Positions 5,314-34,778 of a stretch of 36,823 bases of DNA are shown here, piece by piece. The stretch is from Bacteriovoracaceae bacterium. GTDB lineage: Bacteria > Bdellovibrionota > Bacteriovoracia > Bacteriovoracales > Bacteriovoracaceae. Under the pieces are notes generated by a model that made no database searches, was not told where the DNA came from, and saw nothing but the letters and a program-made list of their open reading frames with translations. Position 1 is the stretch's first letter; each line of letters begins with the position of its first letter. Position numbers and translations under genes: made by a program. The DNA lies in contig JAGLPP010000116.1 in the NCBI GenBank assembly GCA_023137315.1, positions 1-36,823 of the forward strand, in the 5' to 3' direction.

Positions 5314-8088
5314 TCATTGTTGATTGAAGTACTCATCCTCAAAGAAATACTTTTTATCCAGTAATTGCCCTTTTTCACCAGAAGCACTCGTCTCCATTCG
5401 ATTTATACCGGGCTCAGTACCAATAACGAAAGCTTCCATAAAAGCATTTGGATTTGATGCATCAGCCAGTTGACCTGTTTTCTTATCAACCCGAACATTA
5501 ACTATATCCTGTGGAGCGGTAAAATCATTTTCACCGTATTTTTTTAGTCCGGAACGCATAAACTCCCTCCAAATAGGCAGTGCCGATTTTGCTCCTGTTT
5601 CACCCCACCCCAATGTTTTATTGTCATCGAATCCTGTCCAGACACCTGTCGCAATATTCGAGGAAAATCCGATAAACCATGCATCCACATAATTATTTGT
5701 TGTACCCGTTTTTCCTCCAATGAAATGACTTATCGATTTCGTAGACATTCCTGTTCCATGAAGAACCACGCCCTTCAATAAATTGGCCATAATAAACGCC
5801 AATCTGGGATCATAAACCTGTTCTCCACCAAGAGCAGCATGGTATGGATTAACTTCCGTCTCCTCCTTTATATCATCAATATTTTCCACGCTGGCCGTTT
5901 CTGTAAGCATAATTTGTTTCAAAATTGAAGTATTCATCTCCGAAATATCCACTGAGTCTTTTGATTCCTGCTTTTCCAATATTCTTTTTTTCTTAATATT
6001 TTCATCAAGAACGTAAAGATTATTATCCTTGTCTGTAATGGAAATTATTGATTTGGGATCAACAATTTTTCCGCCGTTTGGAAATATTGAATATGTGGAG
6101 ACTATCTCCATTAAATCAACTCCGAATGAGCCAAGGGCCAGACTCAAATCCGGCTCCAAGGTTACATTAAATGATATTCTGTCCACAAAATCCAAAATCC
6201 TCGACACGCCAAGCTTGCTGGCTATTTTTATTGTTGGAACATTTCGACTTTTTTCAAGTGCTTCCCTGAACGTCATCGGCCCCCAAAATTTACCGTCATA
6301 ATTTTTTGGTTTCCAATTAATACTCTGATCGACTCCTCCAAGTGCCTCGGGAGAATCAATAATTATCGAAGACGGAGTTAGACCATTTTCAAGCGCAGCT
6401 GCATAAAGAATTGGTTTAAAGGAAGAACCCGGTTGTCTCTTAGACTGAACGACCCGATTAAACTGTGATTTTCTAAAATTCGATCCTCCAACAAAAGCAA
6501 TAATTTCCCCGTTATGAGGATTAATGGAAATTAACGAGCCTTGAACATCCGGCTCCTGATCCAAAAAACACAGCAGATATCTCTGCTCCCTTACTTCCTT
6601 GAAATACTTTAATTTATCGTAGACCTTTCTGGCACTCTTGTTGATGTATGGCGAGATAGGCACAGACCGCTTCTTGAGTTCAACCCAAACAACATCCCCT
6701 GATTTCACTATTGAGGACGGTTTTGTTATCGGCCAATAGTTCTGTCTCTTTTCCGAAATAATCCTTTTATGTGCCCAGTTAAAATTCTCGTATGGAATTA
6801 TTCCCGGAACGCCTCCGAGCGTAACATAAATTAACCTGGCACGATCATCTATTTTTGTGACAATAGCTTCATAATTTTTATTGATTTTTAATTCAGATAC
6901 AAGACTATCATTTTTATTCATGCCACGAATAAATCTGTAATCATTTATTTTCGATTGCCACTCTTTCCGTGATTTTAGTACATCCTCAAATTCTTCCTCT
7001 GAAAATTCCAGCTCGTAAATTCTTTTATTATCATCACTTAATGTAAAGAAGTTTGAATTTTCCTGAAATATTCTCTTTCTGAATTGAATTTCTTCATTCT
7101 CCTGTTCATCTTTTGTCCCAATATACCTTAACGGCCCTTTGTAACCCTGCCTGCGATCAATTGACCTTAGTCCATTCCTTATTTCCTTCTCTGCAACTTG
7201 TTGCATATCCCAATCAAGCGTTGTCATTACTCTGAAACCTTTTGATAAAAATTTCTCTTCATCAACAAGTTCAATTACTCTCTGCCTCACCCAATCCGTA
7301 AAATATGCCGCTTTAAAATATTTCTTCTTGCGAATTCGAAATTTAATTTTCTCTTTTATGGCATCATCATATTGTTCTTTGGATATCTTTCCAGTTTCAA
7401 GCATTCTTCTCAATACATAGTACTGTCTTCTTTTTGCAAATTGTGGATTAATATATGGAGAATATCTTCCTGGAGCCACTGGAAGACCTGCCATCATTGC
7501 AGTCTCCGCAATCGTTGCCTCCGACAGCTCTTTACCAAAATATCCACTGAACGCGGCTTTTACCCCATAAAAACCGCCACCAAGATAAAACTGATTCAAA
7601 TAGAGATAAAGAATTTCTCTCTTGGAAAACTTCTTTTCAATTCTTTGCGCCAGAAGAATGTCCTTTATTTTCCTCATATAGGAGCGTTCTCTCGTAAGAA
7701 GCAGGGATTTTGCCACCTGTTGTGTAATGGTACTACCACCCTGAACCACCCTGCCTGATTTTAAATTCACAAGCATCGCTCTAAAAATACCAACATAGTC
7801 CACACCCTCATGCTGATAGAATGAATCGTCTTCCGCAGACAAGAAAGCATCCACGATTATCTGTGGGATTTCATCAAAATCAACAATTTCGCGATTTTCT
7901 ATTCCTATTTGGGCCAGGATTGTTCCATCTCTAGCCAATATCTGTGAAGGTACTGGAGGATTATAATCAGCCAGCGTATCAATCCGTGGAAGATCAAAAG
8001 AAAAATAAACAACAAGCCCTGTCGCCAAAAAAACGCCTGCCAATATCAACACAAAACTGGCAACAATAAAATTCCAAATCTTTTTCAT
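5314..8088 (-). CDS. Class A penicillin-binding protein 1A (glycosyltransferase/transpeptidase)
   Basis: A bifunctional peptidoglycan synthase anchored in the inner membrane with its enzymes in the periplasm. After one membrane helix (about 7-29) the GT51 domain shows SAEDDSFYQHEG (catalytic Glu near 86), GGSTITQQVAK, and YLNQFYLGGGFYGVKAA. A long linker with an OB-like section (about 400-500, containing VTLGGVPGIIPYENF) follows. The transpeptidase has QPGSSFKP (nucleophile Ser near 556), KSRNVP as the SxN box, and GGKTGTTNNY near 792. At 924 residues it is somewhat longer than E. coli PBP1a, mainly in the linker. It starts 19 bases after the patatin-like gene, behind GGGTGA, so the two are probably cotranscribed. 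Confidence 0.96.
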   Translation of the reverse strand: MKKIWNFIVASFVLILAGVFLATGLVVYFSFDLPRIDTLADYNPPVPSQILARDGTILAQIGIENREIVDFDEIPQIIVDAFLSAEDDSFYQHEGVDYVGIFRAMLVNLKSGRVVQGGSTITQQVAKSLLLTRERSYMRKIKDILLAQRIEKKFSKREILYLYLNQFYLGGGFYGVKAAFSGYFGKELSEATIAETAMMAGLPVAPGRYSPYINPQFAKRRQYYVLRRMLETGKISKEQYDDAIKEKIKFRIRKKKYFKAAYFTDWVRQRVIELVDEEKFLSKGFRVMTTLDWDMQQVAEKEIRNGLRSIDRRQGYKGPLRYIGTKDEQENEEIQFRKRIFQENSNFFTLSDDNKRIYELEFSEEEFEDVLKSRKEWQSKINDYRFIRGMNKNDSLVSELKINKNYEAIVTKIDDRARLIYVTLGGVPGIIPYENFNWAHKRIISEKRQNYWPITKPSSIVKSGDVVWVELKKRSVPISPYINKSARKVYDKLKYFKEVREQRYLLCFLDQEPDVQGSLISINPHNGEIIAFVGGSNFRKSQFNRVVQSKRQPGSSFKPILYAAALENGLTPSSIIIDSPEALGGVDQSINWKPKNYDGKFWGPMTFREALEKSRNVPTIKIASKLGVSRILDFVDRISFNVTLEPDLSLALGSFGVDLMEIVSTYSIFPNGGKIVDPKSIISITDKDNNLYVLDENIKKKRILEKQESKDSVDISEMNTSILKQIMLTETASVENIDDIKEETEVNPYHAALGGEQVYDPRLAFIMANLLKGVVLHGTGMSTKSISHFIGGKTGTTNNYVDAWFIGFSSNIATGVWTGFDDNKTLGWGETGAKSALPIWREFMRSGLKKYGENDFTAPQDIVNVRVDKKTGQLADASNPNAFMEAFVIGTEPGINRMETSASGEKGQLLDKKYFFEDEYFNQQ

Positions 8089-9657: not shown

Positions 9658-10482
9658 AACAACTTATGGGTTTCAGTATCAGGAGCAATATCTCAACAAA
9701 AAAATGTTGAAACCATCGCCAACAATGTGGCCAACGCAAACACACCGGGCTTCAAGCGTGATCAACTCTCATTTAAAGAACATCTAACAGCTCTCACAAA
9801 AAATATCGATGACGTTGATTTACCACGAAAAGAATGGAAACCTGAAGATTTCTACCGCAGTTACGGCGCAGAAAATTCCTTCGTAAAAGTAAGCGGAAGC
9901 TACACCAATTTTGAACAAGGACAACTTTCACCAACGGGAAATCCTCTTGACCTTGCCATCAAAGGTACCGGATTTTTTGAAGTCCTTACACCAAATGGAA
10001 TTCGTTACACACGAAGAGGCACTTTTACTCTCGCAAATGATGGAACACTCGTAAATGACAAGGGATATCCCATCCTGTCTTCGTTTAATAAAGAACAACT
10101 TAAGGCAAAGAATGCTGAAATTCCGGAAGCAACACAAAGAACAATAAAAATACCGGACGGCAAGTTGGATGTTAATATGCGTGGAGAAATTTTTAGCTCT
10201 GGAAACAAAATCGCAGACCTGTCTCTGTTGGAATTCAAGGACATAAAGGCACTCAAAAAAGAGGGTGGATTGATGTTTATAAACCAGGACAGGGATAACA
10301 TTGTACTATCGACTGCAAAATCACAAATTCATCAGGGATTTGTTGAAAGTTCCAATGTAAATGCCGTCAGCGAAATGGCAAAACTTATAAAAGCACATCG
10401 CCATTTTCAAACAATACAAAAAGTAATAAAAACCTATGATCAGATAACAGGAAAGGGTGTCAATGAAATATCCAAATTCTAA
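9655..10482 (+). CDS. flgF: Flagellar proximal rod protein FlgF (FlgF/FlgG family)
   Basis: A rod protein of the flagellar basal body exported by the flagellar type III system. The start MNNLWVSVSGAISQQKNVE uses TTG at 9655, chosen because AGGAGG lies five bases upstream and because the FlgF/G family begins there; upstream codons are open but show no family match. Landmarks are ETIANNVANANTPGFKRDQ (rod N-terminal motif), GNPLDLAIKGTGFFEV, IRYTRRGTF, and the C-terminal VESSNVNAVSEMAKLIKAHRHFQTIQKVIKTYDQ. About 275 residues. It is the first of two FlgF/G-family genes, hence FlgF rather than FlgG. It heads the flagellar run and overlaps flgG. Confidence 0.88.
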   Translation: MNNLWVSVSGAISQQKNVETIANNVANANTPGFKRDQLSFKEHLTALTKNIDDVDLPRKEWKPEDFYRSYGAENSFVKVSGSYTNFEQGQLSPTGNPLDLAIKGTGFFEVLTPNGIRYTRRGTFTLANDGTLVNDKGYPILSSFNKEQLKAKNAEIPEATQRTIKIPDGKLDVNMRGEIFSSGNKIADLSLLEFKDIKALKKEGGLMFINQDRDNIVLSTAKSQIHQGFVESSNVNAVSEMAKLIKAHRHFQTIQKVIKTYDQITGKGVNEISKF

Positions 10483-11332
10483 AAGAGGGTCAGCTATACT
10501 TGTAATTCTTTTCATCTGCAACCTATGTGCAGTTGATGCTTTCGGCATGATCAAGGCACTTAATACTGCAGCAACCGGCATGTCTGCACAGGAAGCCGAG
10601 GTAAATAACATTTCGAACAATATTGCCAACATCAATACAATTGGCTTTAAAAAATCGAGGACCGAAACAGAGGATCTTCTTTATAATACAATCCAATCGC
10701 CTGGAGCACGTTCCACCGCATCAACAAGATATAGTGTAGGAGTTCAAGTAGGATCTGGAACAAAAATTTCTGCCACCAGAAAGGAGTTTACCCAGGGAAG
10801 TTCAAAAATCACCAATAATCCGTTTGATCTTATGATAAATGGAGATGGATTCTTTGCAGTCATACTTCCAAACAACGAGGTTAGATACACCAGGGATGGT
10901 GCATTCAACGTTGATGAAAATGGAAATATGGTCAATAAACGCGGTTATAAACTATTTCCAGGTCTTGTAATACCACCTAATGTAAAATCCATACACATTT
11001 CCACAGATGGAAAGGTCGATTGTTATTTTACCAACACTCCGGAAGCAACTAATCTCGGTACAATACCGGTATTTATATTCATAAATCCCGTCGGACTCCA
11101 GTCAATGGGCGAAAACATGTATCAAATAACACAGTCAAGCGGCACCCCACTACAGGGTATTGCCGGAACAGAAAATGTGGGCATCATTCAACAGGGTGCG
11201 CTGGAAGCTTCCAACGTAAATATTATGAATGAAATGACCAATTTAATTCGCGCCCAGAGGGCATATGAAATGAATTCAAAAGTAATGGGGGTCGCAGATC
11301 AAATGTTACAAACAGTAAACAATATAAGGTAA
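10463..11332 (+). CDS. flgG: Flagellar distal rod protein FlgG with signal-like N-terminal extension
   Basis: The core from residue 29 (MIKALNTAATGMSAQEAEVN) to the end (QRAYEMNSKVMGVADQMLQTVNNIR) is a clear FlgG, including NNISNNIANINTIGFKKSR, NPFDLMINGDGFFAV and VRYTRDGAFNVD. The usual FlgG start is that internal ATG at 10547, but it has no Shine-Dalgarno. The ATG at 10463 has AGGAAAGGG five bases upstream and gives 28 extra residues: a basic stretch, a hydrophobic core (SAILVILFICNLCA) and a small-residue end (VDAFG), much like a Sec signal peptide. Rod proteins normally leave by the flagellar type III route with no cleaved signal, so this extension is odd. The preferred start overlaps flgF by 20 bases. 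Confidence 0.88.
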   Translation: MKYPNSKRGSAILVILFICNLCAVDAFGMIKALNTAATGMSAQEAEVNNISNNIANINTIGFKKSRTETEDLLYNTIQSPGARSTASTRYSVGVQVGSGTKISATRKEFTQGSSKITNNPFDLMINGDGFFAVILPNNEVRYTRDGAFNVDENGNMVNKRGYKLFPGLVIPPNVKSIHISTDGKVDCYFTNTPEATNLGTIPVFIFINPVGLQSMGENMYQITQSSGTPLQGIAGTENVGIIQQGALEASNVNIMNEMTNLIRAQRAYEMNSKVMGVADQMLQTVNNIR

Positions 11333-11338
11333 AAAAAC

Positions 11339-12277
11339 ATGTTAAAACCTCTTTTTATGATACTCATACTTATAGCTGTTGTTCATGCTGGAATAACTCA
11401 TGCCAAAAACGTAGATATAACCAACCATTCAACAAAAACCTGTTATATTGTTGTTCCAGATTTCATATATCATACCAATGAGCCAAACAAAGTTGCCAGC
11501 AACGAACTTATCACCAAATCCGACTGCCCATCAATAATAAGAAATAAATTTAAAGAAATTATCCTCGAATTTGACAACGCCGTAAGAGCTGATTATCTGA
11601 AAAATATTTTTCAAAATGAGTTTGGTGACTATCGACTACACATTCATCCTGATACTATTCGTGTCACAAATCTACAAAGCAGACTAAGAAATGATTTTAA
11701 TTTAAAACAGATTCATCATATAGATCAAATTTCCATTCTCAACAGCAGTAAGATCATCACTCACAAGAATAACGAATCCATCGAGTTTCGTTGTAAAAAT
11801 TGTACCTTTACCGGCAATAAAAACATCAAAACGATAATCAAAAACAAACAATTCGGAAATAAAAGAACTGAATGGATAAATGCCACTATAACTGTTGGAA
11901 CGCGTGTTATGACTAATCATAATCATATGGCCATTACGAATCAGGCACTTTCACCAAAACAATTCAAATTTAACAATATAAATACAACCCGTCCCGAACA
12001 ATATTTTACCGATATAAAAACGCTGCCGTTTTACAAAATCAACAAACCCATGCCCAAGGGAACCCCTCTAAAATATTCCGATTTAACTCCAATTAATCTT
12101 GTTAAATTCGGACATCCGGTAAAAGTTGTCATTAAACAAAAATCTCTGGTACTAACAAGCACAGCAACACCAAGAAGGTCTGGAAAATATAACGATTTAA
12201 TACAGCTTCGAACCTCTGCAAATAAAATCATAACAGGTAAAGTCATTAATTTTAACAAGGTGATCATGGAACTATGA
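11339..12277 (+). CDS. flgA: Flagellar P-ring assembly chaperone FlgA
   Basis: FlgA is a periplasmic chaperone for assembly of FlgI into the P ring. The protein begins with a signal peptide (about 1-22, hydrophobic core FMILILIAVVHAG, likely cleavage after THA). The C-terminal third has the SAF/ChapFlgA pattern: KINKPMPKGTPLKYSDLTP, LVKFGHPVKVVIKQKSLVLTS, and a final GKVINFNKVIMEL. The N-terminal 200 residues are poorly conserved and rich in Asn and Lys, as is usual for this family. At 312 residues it is longer than E. coli FlgA. Six bases separate it from flgG, and its stop overlaps the flgH start as ATGA. Confidence 0.85.
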   Translation: MLKPLFMILILIAVVHAGITHAKNVDITNHSTKTCYIVVPDFIYHTNEPNKVASNELITKSDCPSIIRNKFKEIILEFDNAVRADYLKNIFQNEFGDYRLHIHPDTIRVTNLQSRLRNDFNLKQIHHIDQISILNSSKIITHKNNESIEFRCKNCTFTGNKNIKTIIKNKQFGNKRTEWINATITVGTRVMTNHNHMAITNQALSPKQFKFNNINTTRPEQYFTDIKTLPFYKINKPMPKGTPLKYSDLTPINLVKFGHPVKVVIKQKSLVLTSTATPRRSGKYNDLIQLRTSANKIITGKVINFNKVIMEL

Positions 12278-31689: not shown

Positions 31690-34600
31690 CTAGTTAAAAT
31701 GCAAAAAATGTTGAATAACATTAATACAATTTTTTTTTGAAGTATAAGATGTATTGAAAGAATTATGTGTATATCCAATGATCTGTTTGTCTTTATCGAG
31801 GAGTATCTTTATTTGCCTGTTGTTTACATTTTTTCTTTTTAAAACATAAAATGGTTTTGCTTGATTATCAAAAAGATCAGGCGAGGTATGGATAAGGACA
31901 TTATATTTTTCAACTGCATAATGTTGTTTGTCAGCAATCATTGATTGGATTTTATTTTTTATAGACAACTCACCAATTTCATCCCAAGACAATAGTGTTG
32001 GTGGTGCTCGGTCTCCAAGCAATGACCGCTGTAGATGTTGTCGTATATTAACATCGGCTTGTTTTTTCATTAACTCTCGTTCTTCTCGAGTAATTAATCC
32101 ATGAGATGCCATTTGTATAATAAATAAATCAACGATCTGTTTTTTATAAAAGTCTCTTACTGAGACAAATGATTGATTCATGCTAAGCTTTGTTTTTAAA
32201 TCATCAAGAATTATTTTATCTAACGAAATATCAAGTCCCCTGGATGTTCTCTGAACAATATCAAAAATTGCTCCTCCCAGATCTCTGTAGGCAAACTTAC
32301 CTGTTAATTTTCTATCTTGCTCATTGATTTGAATTAAAAGGTTCTGACTATGCATTTCAAAAGTAATTCCTTTTTTAACATGCCATTCATCGATAATATT
32401 ATTAATATTATCGATTATATTTTTCTTTAACCATTTATAAGGCATTTGTTTATCATGTTTTGACATGTATCGAAAAAAGAGAGGTTTCTGCGTTGAACTT
32501 TCTGTACTTAAAAAACTAAACATTGGAACATAACGATTCGATTTATCGTAAAATTTAGAAGGTATCTCGCGAACAATAAAACCACCAAGGTTTTTATCTT
32601 TTTTAGGAAAACAACCATATGTCTCTGGAAAAACAAATCCCATTTTACCTTTATTTTTAATGTCACTTTGTTCAATTATATTTGTCATATAAATACTTCT
32701 ACGTATTTCTTGTTGCCATACAGCTCTTTGATTATTATTAATTTCAAGTGGAATAGATAATTTTGCCATATGAACAGAAGCATCTGGAAATGCAGAATCA
32801 ACCATTAAAAGTGTTCTGTCGCTACTGGTTGGAATAGCAATTATTGTACTCTCATTTGCATCAACAAATTGCGCATCTTTAAATACTGACTGATAATAGT
32901 TGATGGCGGTAGGATGAACAGGAAACCTAAAATATTTTTTACCATCAATTATAAGTGAATAATGTTTTTTTATATTATCTGATATATTGACACTCTCTAA
33001 TCGTTCCAAGGAATTATTTGTTTCAGGTATAAGATAATATGGAACTTTGAATATCGCGCGGCTATCTGCGCTGAATTGTTTCGGCAAGGAGCTATCAAAC
33101 ACTCCTTTTTGATAAATTTCTTTAATATTTCTAGTCTGTTCGTAATCAATTAAATCTAAAGCTTTTTGAAGTTTTTTTGCTGCATTATCTTCTAATTTGA
33201 AATTATTATAATGATTACCAATATTACCCTTAAGCATTTCTACTACATCAAGATTGTCTTTTTTTATTATTGTATTACCTAGATTCAAAACAGTTTTAAA
33301 AACATCTGCCTCTTGAATGTTTTTTGCGATAGTTTGAAATAACTTCTCTGCATCCCCTGGATTGTCAAGCATATGTTTTGTTGCAGAAAGATGTTTTGGC
33401 TCTCTAGGATTATATGCAGTTGAAACATTATTTAAAAATTCTTCACTTAATGAATTATCCCCTTTGAGGTGATGGATATAACGTTTAACATTTTCCATGG
33501 ATGGTTTATTCCATTCAACTCTTGTCATTACAAATGGTCTACCGAGAGATAACGCATCACCAAGGGCATTGTCCCCAGCTACAAGATTTGGAATATTTTT
33601 AGAAACAGACAATAGTTTTAAATAGCTATCCTGTGGCAAATTACCTGTCATAACCATAACTGTTTTTCCCGGCGGAATTTTTTCAGGAATCTTTCCTCCG
33701 TTTAACAGATCGACTATTTCAAATGATTCAGAAGTAATGCTTCCCATTTCTTTAAGATGATTTGTTAGTTTCGTTGCAGTTTCCTCGGTAAATACCGTTG
33801 GCCCGAATAATATTGTGCTCGAATTAGTTTTTACATTAAACTCATTAACGGTTTTGAGATAATCTCCAAAATCGTACCACGTTTCCTTAAGTCCAATACC
33901 ATATATCGTTGCACGATTTGTTTTTTTATTATCATTAATGTTTAAATAATTAATAAGCTTTTCATTTCTAGATTTTAATAATTCGACATAATCATGATTA
34001 TTCTTTTGAAGATACTCATTGTAACTGACTAAATCATTTTGCAACGAATTTATAAGAGCTTCTTGTTTTTCTTTTTTATTAAGCTCTGACAATTCGTGAG
34101 CAAGACGATTATAATAAATACCCAAATCATCTTTTCCTGGCCCAACATCCGGTAAAAATACTTGTTGTCCTTTATAAACGACCTTGTTTAAAATCTGATT
34201 ACTGGTAGGTATTTTAGATAAATTATAAACACCAAGGAAAAAAGATACTTTTGCATCTTTAATATTATTAGCGGCCCTTATTTCAGATGGACGAAGAGCA
34301 AATCTGATACCAATATCATGTGGAAAATCGTCCCTTACTTTTGTAAAATCACCATAATTTCTATTGATTTTTATATTATTACCAATAGTTAGAACTGTGT
34401 CTTGTAAATCAGCCTTTGTGCGATATTCCAACGACAATTCTTTCAAAACAGAATTTCCGGCCGAATCATTTATATAAACAGTAATTTCTCCAGTATATCC
34501 CATTTTTCTAAAATTCTTTGCCGCTGCTAATGCTGGAGCGACATCTCCACGTCCTGCACGAGTATAAGCAGCATCAAGAGCAATCGATTTTATCTCCTGA

Positions 34601-34740
34601 TTTATAGCAATTCTTCCAATAAGATCACTTACTTTGTTTTCTACTGACGAAATACCCCTGTAATTTCCAACAATTGAGGAACAAGAACTAAATAATATTG
34701 AAAAAACTAATAATAAAATAAGAATTATTCTACGGGCCAT
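31690..34740 (-). CDS. Giant lipoprotein with GT-B-like N-terminal region and IucA/IucC siderophore-synthetase-like C-terminal region
   Basis: A 1016-residue predicted lipoprotein: RIILILLLVFSILFSSC gives a signal and a lipobox-like FSSC. Residues about 50-430 contain GRGDVAPALAAAKNFRKMG at the start, and MVMTGNLPQDSYLKLLS with LVAGDNALGDALSLGRPFVM near 375-400; these resemble the acceptor- and donor-side loops of GT-B glycosyltransferases (tentative). From about 590 the IucA/IucC pattern appears: FPVHPTAI (609), PTSSDRTLL (SxRT, Arg near 642), KLSIPLEINNNQRAV, FVFPETYGC, the ATP-site EMHSQN (near 797) and YRDLGG (near 819). All key NIS-synthetase residues seem kept. The ATG at 34740 follows AAGAAGGACAA. 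Such ligases are normally cytoplasmic, so the lipid anchor is unexpected. Confidence 0.7.
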   Translation of the reverse strand: MARRIILILLLVFSILFSSCSSIVGNYRGISSVENKVSDLIGRIAINQEIKSIALDAAYTRAGRGDVAPALAAAKNFRKMGYTGEITVYINDSAGNSVLKELSLEYRTKADLQDTVLTIGNNIKINRNYGDFTKVRDDFPHDIGIRFALRPSEIRAANNIKDAKVSFFLGVYNLSKIPTSNQILNKVVYKGQQVFLPDVGPGKDDLGIYYNRLAHELSELNKKEKQEALINSLQNDLVSYNEYLQKNNHDYVELLKSRNEKLINYLNINDNKKTNRATIYGIGLKETWYDFGDYLKTVNEFNVKTNSSTILFGPTVFTEETATKLTNHLKEMGSITSESFEIVDLLNGGKIPEKIPPGKTVMVMTGNLPQDSYLKLLSVSKNIPNLVAGDNALGDALSLGRPFVMTRVEWNKPSMENVKRYIHHLKGDNSLSEEFLNNVSTAYNPREPKHLSATKHMLDNPGDAEKLFQTIAKNIQEADVFKTVLNLGNTIIKKDNLDVVEMLKGNIGNHYNNFKLEDNAAKKLQKALDLIDYEQTRNIKEIYQKGVFDSSLPKQFSADSRAIFKVPYYLIPETNNSLERLESVNISDNIKKHYSLIIDGKKYFRFPVHPTAINYYQSVFKDAQFVDANESTIIAIPTSSDRTLLMVDSAFPDASVHMAKLSIPLEINNNQRAVWQQEIRRSIYMTNIIEQSDIKNKGKMGFVFPETYGCFPKKDKNLGGFIVREIPSKFYDKSNRYVPMFSFLSTESSTQKPLFFRYMSKHDKQMPYKWLKKNIIDNINNIIDEWHVKKGITFEMHSQNLLIQINEQDRKLTGKFAYRDLGGAIFDIVQRTSRGLDISLDKIILDDLKTKLSMNQSFVSVRDFYKKQIVDLFIIQMASHGLITREERELMKKQADVNIRQHLQRSLLGDRAPPTLLSWDEIGELSIKNKIQSMIADKQHYAVEKYNVLIHTSPDLFDNQAKPFYVLKRKNVNNRQIKILLDKDKQIIGYTHNSFNTSYTSKKNCINVIQHFLHFN

Positions 34741-34778
34741 TTGTCCTTCTTTATTTTTAATCTTGAACAATATGCTAA

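Follow-up and report, generated by a model that had tools for sequence, protein, structure and literature searches.

NIS synthetases and GT-B glycosyltransferases are the closest described systems to the protein analysed here. In the NIS synthetase AcsD, R305 is crucial for adenylate formation, and an ATP-site role of H444 is likewise described (PMC3323832); S279, R281, T282, K293, N447 and D464 are further ATP contacts. In EarP, a GT-B arginine rhamnosyltransferase, D13, D17 and E273 are essential (PMC5615199). ATP-dependent ligases are taken to work only inside the cytoplasm. Here we analyse P0001, a 1016-aa protein of a Bacteriovoracaceae bacterium (phylum Bdellovibrionota), encoded on contig JAGLPP010000116.1 within a 36,823-nucleotide stretch of DNA, hereafter the window. 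In P0001 a predicted GT-B-like domain and a predicted NIS-synthetase-like domain follow an export signal. The NIS fold itself is known; neither an exported NIS-like clade with the conservation reported below nor a GT-B/NIS fusion turned up in the libraries and papers that we searched.

The P0001 gene starts with an export signal

As defined by open reading frame and start analysis, the P0001 gene (31690-34740, minus strand) is uninterrupted across its 1016 codons, and the ATG at 34740 is its sole plausible start. Read directly from the sequence, the ribosome-binding site AAGGA (34744-34748, minus strand) lies a few nucleotides upstream; the second in-frame ATG is codon 80, within the first domain, and initiation there would remove this domain's first strand-helix. 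Because a ribosome-binding site backs the ATG at 34740 and no other in-frame ATG occurs until 79 codons later, the hydrophobic N-terminus MARRIILILLLVFSILFSSC belongs to P0001, and the n-region, h-region and Cys of a lipoprotein-type signal peptide are all present in it.

Signal peptide and lipobox were judged by consensus reading of the sequence. The signal peptide MARRIILILLLVFSILFSS and a putatively lipidated Cys20 (lipobox FSSC) occupy 34681-34740 on the minus strand; as compared to the consensus [LVI][AST][GA]C, Phe at -3 and Ser at -1 deviate, and the lipobox also varies among close relatives of P0001 (e.g. LIAC, IVGC and LQNC). The signal sequence is thus plainly present. Sec export, which we infer from sequence alone, is firm on these grounds, and lipid anchoring, also inferred, is likely but not shown, given that FSSC is off consensus. 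An earlier note, made without database searches, had proposed a lipid-anchored protein: its export claim held, with the supported start directly before the signal and no plausible start downstream, and the lipid anchor remains its weaker part.

The C-terminal half is predicted to have the NIS fold

The NIS-synthetase-like domain spans about aa 517-1016 (31693-33192, minus strand). The Pfam family IucA_IucC (PF04183) matches aa 593-742 of P0001 with 32.2 bits (cut-off 25, E 1e-7), the sole PF04183 match within its own 3.15 Mb genome. Two more exported NIS-like paralogues are encoded in this genome outside the window (L070:357-1715, minus strand; L071:3939-5630, plus strand), both below the PF04183 cut-off. 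The FhuF-like C-terminal part (PF06276), which the earlier note had suggested checking, scored 13.2 bits in P0001, under the 25.2 cut-off; this cut-off is passed by the relatives L156 and L164.

Single-sequence searches with P0001 were too weak, returning no meaningful PDB match, no GTDB-wide match and no NCBIfam family, and the alignments A2 and A3 were required as queries. Profile-profile comparison (hhalign) of a P0001-related profile with canonical NIS synthetases of the same phylum gave 98.1% probability (E 1e-13), and a profile of P0001-related proteins aligns to AcsD across the ATP-site motifs. The AlphaFold2 model of the C-terminal half has a pLDDT of 80 and a pTM of 0.80, and all 50 of its top 50 Foldseek matches in the PDB are NIS synthetases, including IucA (E 8.9e-15), NcdF, AsbB, DesD and AcsD. 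The TM-scores are about 0.5, which we attribute to the divergence and reduced length of the protein and to its poorly modelled tail. The similarity to NIS synthetases is far above chance level. That this half has the NIS fold is, as a model prediction, very likely, and the IucA/IucC-type identity claimed by the earlier note held. None of the outcomes that would have refuted its reading of the protein (no IucA/IucC match, a non-NIS fold, or a negative signal prediction with a downstream start) was met.

The ATP-site residues are retained

Conservation was counted across 43 exported NIS-like sequences with about 20% identity to P0001, and correspondence to AcsD was taken from the alignment. The HP motif H609-P610 lies at 32911-32916 (this and the following features on the minus strand), with H in 35/43 and P in 40/43 sequences; in one large exported subfamily the H is replaced by N. 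S639-S640-D-R642-T643 (32812-32826) corresponds to AcsD S279/R281/T282, S640 being found in 36/43, R642 in 40/43 and S or T at 643 in 42/43. K660 (32761-32763; AcsD K293) is present in 42/43. At R672 (32725-32727; AcsD R305), R is found in 30/43 (70%) and K in 9/43, R or K together accounting for 91%. E795-M-H797-S-Q799-N800 (32341-32358) matches AcsD E442-P-H444-L-Q-N447, with H in 41/43 and Q and N each in 42/43, and R819-D820 (32281-32286) matches R463-D464, with R in 35 and D in 42 of the 43. E706 is invariant.

With the R672 position excepted, the ATP-pocket residues are 84-98% conserved, and counterparts of AcsD S279, R281, T282, K293, R305, H444, N447 and D464 are all found in P0001. 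The NIS motifs read in the earlier note (HP 609-610, S640-D-R642-T643, K660, R672, E795-H797-Q799-N800 and R819-D820) are thus all where it had placed them. Since the full set of ATP and metal residues is retained despite such divergence, we favour a nucleotide-using function outside the cytoplasm.

P0001 belongs to an exported NIS-like clade across Bdellovibrionota

We looked for relatives of P0001 in 129 genomes from its family and in 369 from the phylum. Matches, part of them canonical NIS synthetases, were found in 43/129 and 106/369 genomes, respectively, on contigs including Bacteriovorax, Halobacteriovorax and unclassified Oligoflexia, and yielded about 78 distinct exported-type NIS-like and 18 canonical NIS proteins. 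As judged by a strict pattern, a Sec or lipoprotein signal is carried by 56 of the 78 exported-type proteins, as compared to none of the 18 canonical proteins and 95 of the 334 genes in the neighbourhood. Exported-type proteins were scanned over 100 codons and the controls over 40; with the limit set at 40 codons, 52 of the 78 still score. Among the 22 without a pattern match, several show a signal on visual inspection (e.g. L146 and L091) or are incomplete. A looser signal scan let through 188 of 368 background frames and was therefore discarded.

In the tree, which has 87 rows, a branch with 100% support separates the exported from the canonical NIS proteins; P0001 groups with 11 exported relatives (96% support) on a long branch. 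An exported, signal-bearing NIS-like clade thus exists across Bdellovibrionota, and P0001 belongs inside it. The earlier note had treated P0001 as a single odd protein; a phylum-wide family was found instead. A second, GTDB-wide scan returned Bdellovibrionota records only, but its peptide patterns were drawn from one subfamily, and restriction of the exported proteins to the phylum is therefore not proven. One member (L146:3485-4897) is carried by a genome that is probably that of B. bacteriovorus HD100; in the papers searched there was no mention of exported IucA/IucC proteins or of this HD100 gene. Paired copies of a short NIS-like subfamily lie within a few kb of each other at L085:4601-5962 and 10310-11680, and at L165:4456-6165 and 6220-7779.

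These results bear on the possibility that P0001 is a conventional cytoplasmic siderophore synthetase, with its start misread or its hydrophobic N-terminus unused. The NIS-family fold and motifs would fit. Against this stand the start backed by a ribosome-binding site, dozens of signal-bearing relatives, the separate clade and the lack of siderophore genes seen nearby, and we regard the explanation as very unlikely. The last point, made already in the earlier note, held for the window genes scanned, among which there were no siderophore genes; some window reading frames were outside the scan. The neighbours of P0001 are an APH-like kinase, a GNAT protein, an RND pump, an aldehyde dehydrogenase and flagellar genes.

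The N-terminal half is GT-B-like at fold level only

The GT-B-like domain covers about aa 50-480 (33301-34593, minus strand). Its model reaches only a moderate pLDDT of 69.5, and aa 105-195 fall below 50. The best Foldseek match is the GT-B rhamnosyltransferase EarP (E 2.9e-6, probability 1.00, TM 0.58 to target), followed by WaaG (E 4e-4) and then by weaker GT-B and epimerase matches. No Pfam family was matched by the N-terminal half of P0001, no glycosyltransferase Pfam family by P0001 or any of 25 GT-B-like homologues, and a PDB profile search with the GT-B-like family returned only noise, mostly coiled coils, with no glycosyltransferase beyond chance; the GT-B assignment therefore depends on fold comparison. 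The GT-B-like claim of the earlier note accordingly holds at fold level only, without a sequence-family match: the fold, predicted by the model, is likely, and glycosyltransferase activity is not established.

Stand-alone homologues in other Bdellovibrionota, mostly signal-bearing (22/29 by the strict pattern), share two loops with P0001. One is the GxG[D/H] loop G63-R-G65-D66 (34543-34554, minus strand), in which G63 and G65 are found in 26/26 sequences and D or H at position 66 in 26/26; the other is A388-G389-D390-N391 (33568-33579, minus strand), with G389 in 26/26. D66 sits where EarP D17 would, a correspondence by position made without residue alignment. D390, by position the candidate counterpart of EarP E273, varies within the family, which leaves sugar transfer by this domain uncertain. 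In two signal-bearing proteins (L007:121-2562, minus strand; L068:49-2649, plus strand) a GT-B-like half is joined to a C-terminal part with DDD motifs that resembles a GT-A glycosyltransferase and has no Pfam match.

Fusions and gene neighbours

The fusion of a GT-B-like with an NIS-like domain, for which the earlier note had proposed checking homologues, was seen in P0001 only, among all proteins collected from the 369 phylum genomes. Other fusions were found. L163:4533-6692 (plus strand) encodes an exported NIS-like protein with a C-terminal NadD-type cytidylyltransferase-like domain (CTP_transf_like, 1.8e-17); in L063 the exported NIS-like part is joined to an M91-like metallopeptidase domain (3e-5, 24.9 bits, just below the cut-off of 25), and by eye the fused domain of L134 resembles this peptidase. 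Separately, a 2118-aa exported protein (L148:919-7272, minus strand) has an NIS-like N-terminus, a weak amidoligase match and HEAT repeats.

That the P0001 fusion occurs in no other protein collected, and that the source genome is a 223-contig assembly, could point to a chimeric contig, in which misassembly joined two unrelated genes. However, the two parts are joined in frame, the base composition stays uniform throughout the gene, and NIS domains are fused to other partners elsewhere, which makes this explanation very improbable. GC3 is uniform along the gene at about 0.2 and higher (0.28-0.37) in six other window genes; for this reason the gene is possibly recently acquired or fast-evolving.

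In Bacteriovorax, a stand-alone NIS-like lipoprotein is encoded together with members of two other lipoprotein families in a conserved same-strand run (L050:6209-12005, minus strand; L093-L097). The run comprises one or two lipoproteins of ~530 aa, a lipoprotein of ~820 aa and the NIS-like lipoprotein, often with an alpha/beta hydrolase. The ~820-aa lipoprotein has a weak match to PNP_UDP_1 (nucleoside phosphorylase). The ~530-aa lipoproteins show a pattern, R...S-x-T/S...E-x-E, that is typically seen in ADP-ribosyltransferases, which use NAD; this identity rests on the pattern only and gained no support from profile searches.

It is conceivable that the family re-uses the ATP pocket in an exported transferase acting on another energy-rich external donor (acyl-adenylates, NAD or dinucleotides). 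Pocket conservation is equally compatible with this, and the neighbouring lipoprotein family of the relatives has the ADP-ribosyltransferase-like pattern, albeit without a profile match. To our knowledge no NIS-fold enzyme uses such a donor, and at SxR[T/S], K and HxxN the agreement with the ATP contacts is exact; we therefore judge this reading unlikely.

Discussion

The explanation that we consider best, though at slightly less than even odds, is that P0001 is an exported nucleotide-using, carboxylate-activating enzyme, combining a GT-B-like with an NIS domain and acting outside the predator cytoplasm, probably on prey material; its catalysis, target, ATP source and lipid anchor are all inferred. 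P0001 would be exported via Sec and probably lipid-anchored. The C-terminal domain would bind ATP and activate a carboxylate (or other acyl group) as an adenylate, which the NIS domain would then couple to an acceptor; the EarP/MurG-like GT-B domain may act on that target too, by binding a nucleotide-linked sugar or transferring it. Both domains would work outside the predator cytoplasm, on nucleotides released by the consumed prey. During intraperiplasmic growth, Bdellovibrio strain 109J takes up nucleoside monophosphates of its prey and uses them (PMC7529429), from which we infer that nucleotides are available outside the predator at this stage. We prefer an exported carboxylate-activating ligase, at work in the envelope of the predator or in what remains of the prey, because the full ATP and metal set is retained and prey is an obvious nucleotide source. 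Action inside prey, offered in the earlier note as the solution to the supply of ATP, remains a hypothesis.

Several points weigh against this explanation. The predatory lifestyle of the source organism is inferred from its family only, and a lipid anchor would tether P0001 to the predator instead of delivering it. Relatives in its clade carry Asp or Glu adjoining the lipobox Cys; by the E. coli rule, Asp after Cys means inner-membrane retention, and whether the rule applies in Bdellovibrionota is unknown. Finally, position 390 is variable and the HP motif has N for H in one large subfamily.

The main rival is a non-catalytic exported binder, in which the NIS pocket would serve to scavenge, carry or sense a nucleotide or carboxylate ligand that it binds in the periplasm, without a ligase reaction. 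ATP is normally scarce in the periplasm, donor-site conservation is lost in the GT-B-like domain, the HP histidine is missing from one NIS-like subfamily, and the Bacteriovorax members of the clade adjoin the lipoprotein with the weak nucleoside-phosphorylase match. A pure binder, however, would not need the catalytic Arg R672 and the metal-site Asp D820 that are kept alongside the ATP contacts, and the AcsD equivalent of R672, R305, is required for adenylate formation (PMC3323832). The binder remains possible.

Extending the preferred reading of an exported ligase, a bolder one is that the exported nucleotide-dependent enzymes of Bdellovibrionota have diversified into a modular set, in which NIS-fold ligases either stand alone or carry a GT-B-like, nucleotidyltransferase or peptidase domain and are powered, outside the predator's cytoplasm, by ATP and activated sugars from prey; here we find the balance tipping against. 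If a whole clade indeed leaves the cell with a conserved ATP pocket, either predators use ATP from their prey to fuel biosynthesis outside the cell, or the NIS fold has taken on an unknown exported role. Both alternatives are directly testable, since the probable genome of B. bacteriovorus HD100, a laboratory strain amenable to genetics, carries one member.

Comparison with known systems

NIS synthetases (IucA/IucC, AcsD, AsbB and DesD; PF04183) share with P0001 the predicted fold and, in the same order, the ATP contacts S/R/T, K, R, H, N and D; P0001 differs by its export signal, an FhuF-like part below cut-off, the lack of siderophore genes seen, its own clade and the N-terminal GT-B-like domain. 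With EarP (6j7k/6j7l/6j7m) and MurG-like GT-B enzymes P0001 has the predicted GT-B layout in common, and its GxG[D/H] loop lies at the place of the catalytic Asp/His, the residue correspondence being inferred. Unlike these enzymes, it has no sequence-family match, is exported, as inferred from its signal, contains a long, poorly modelled insert (aa 105-195) and has an unconserved E273 candidate. DfoC (acetyltransferase-NIS, 5o7o) resembles P0001 in joining an NIS domain to a second enzyme, but belongs to the desferrioxamine pathway, and its partner domain is a different one. The other exported NIS-like proteins of Bdellovibrionota (e.g. L004, L098, L146 and L164; unnamed in the libraries searched) have a signal and an NIS core with the same pocket as P0001, but lack the GT-B-like domain, some carrying other fused domains instead.
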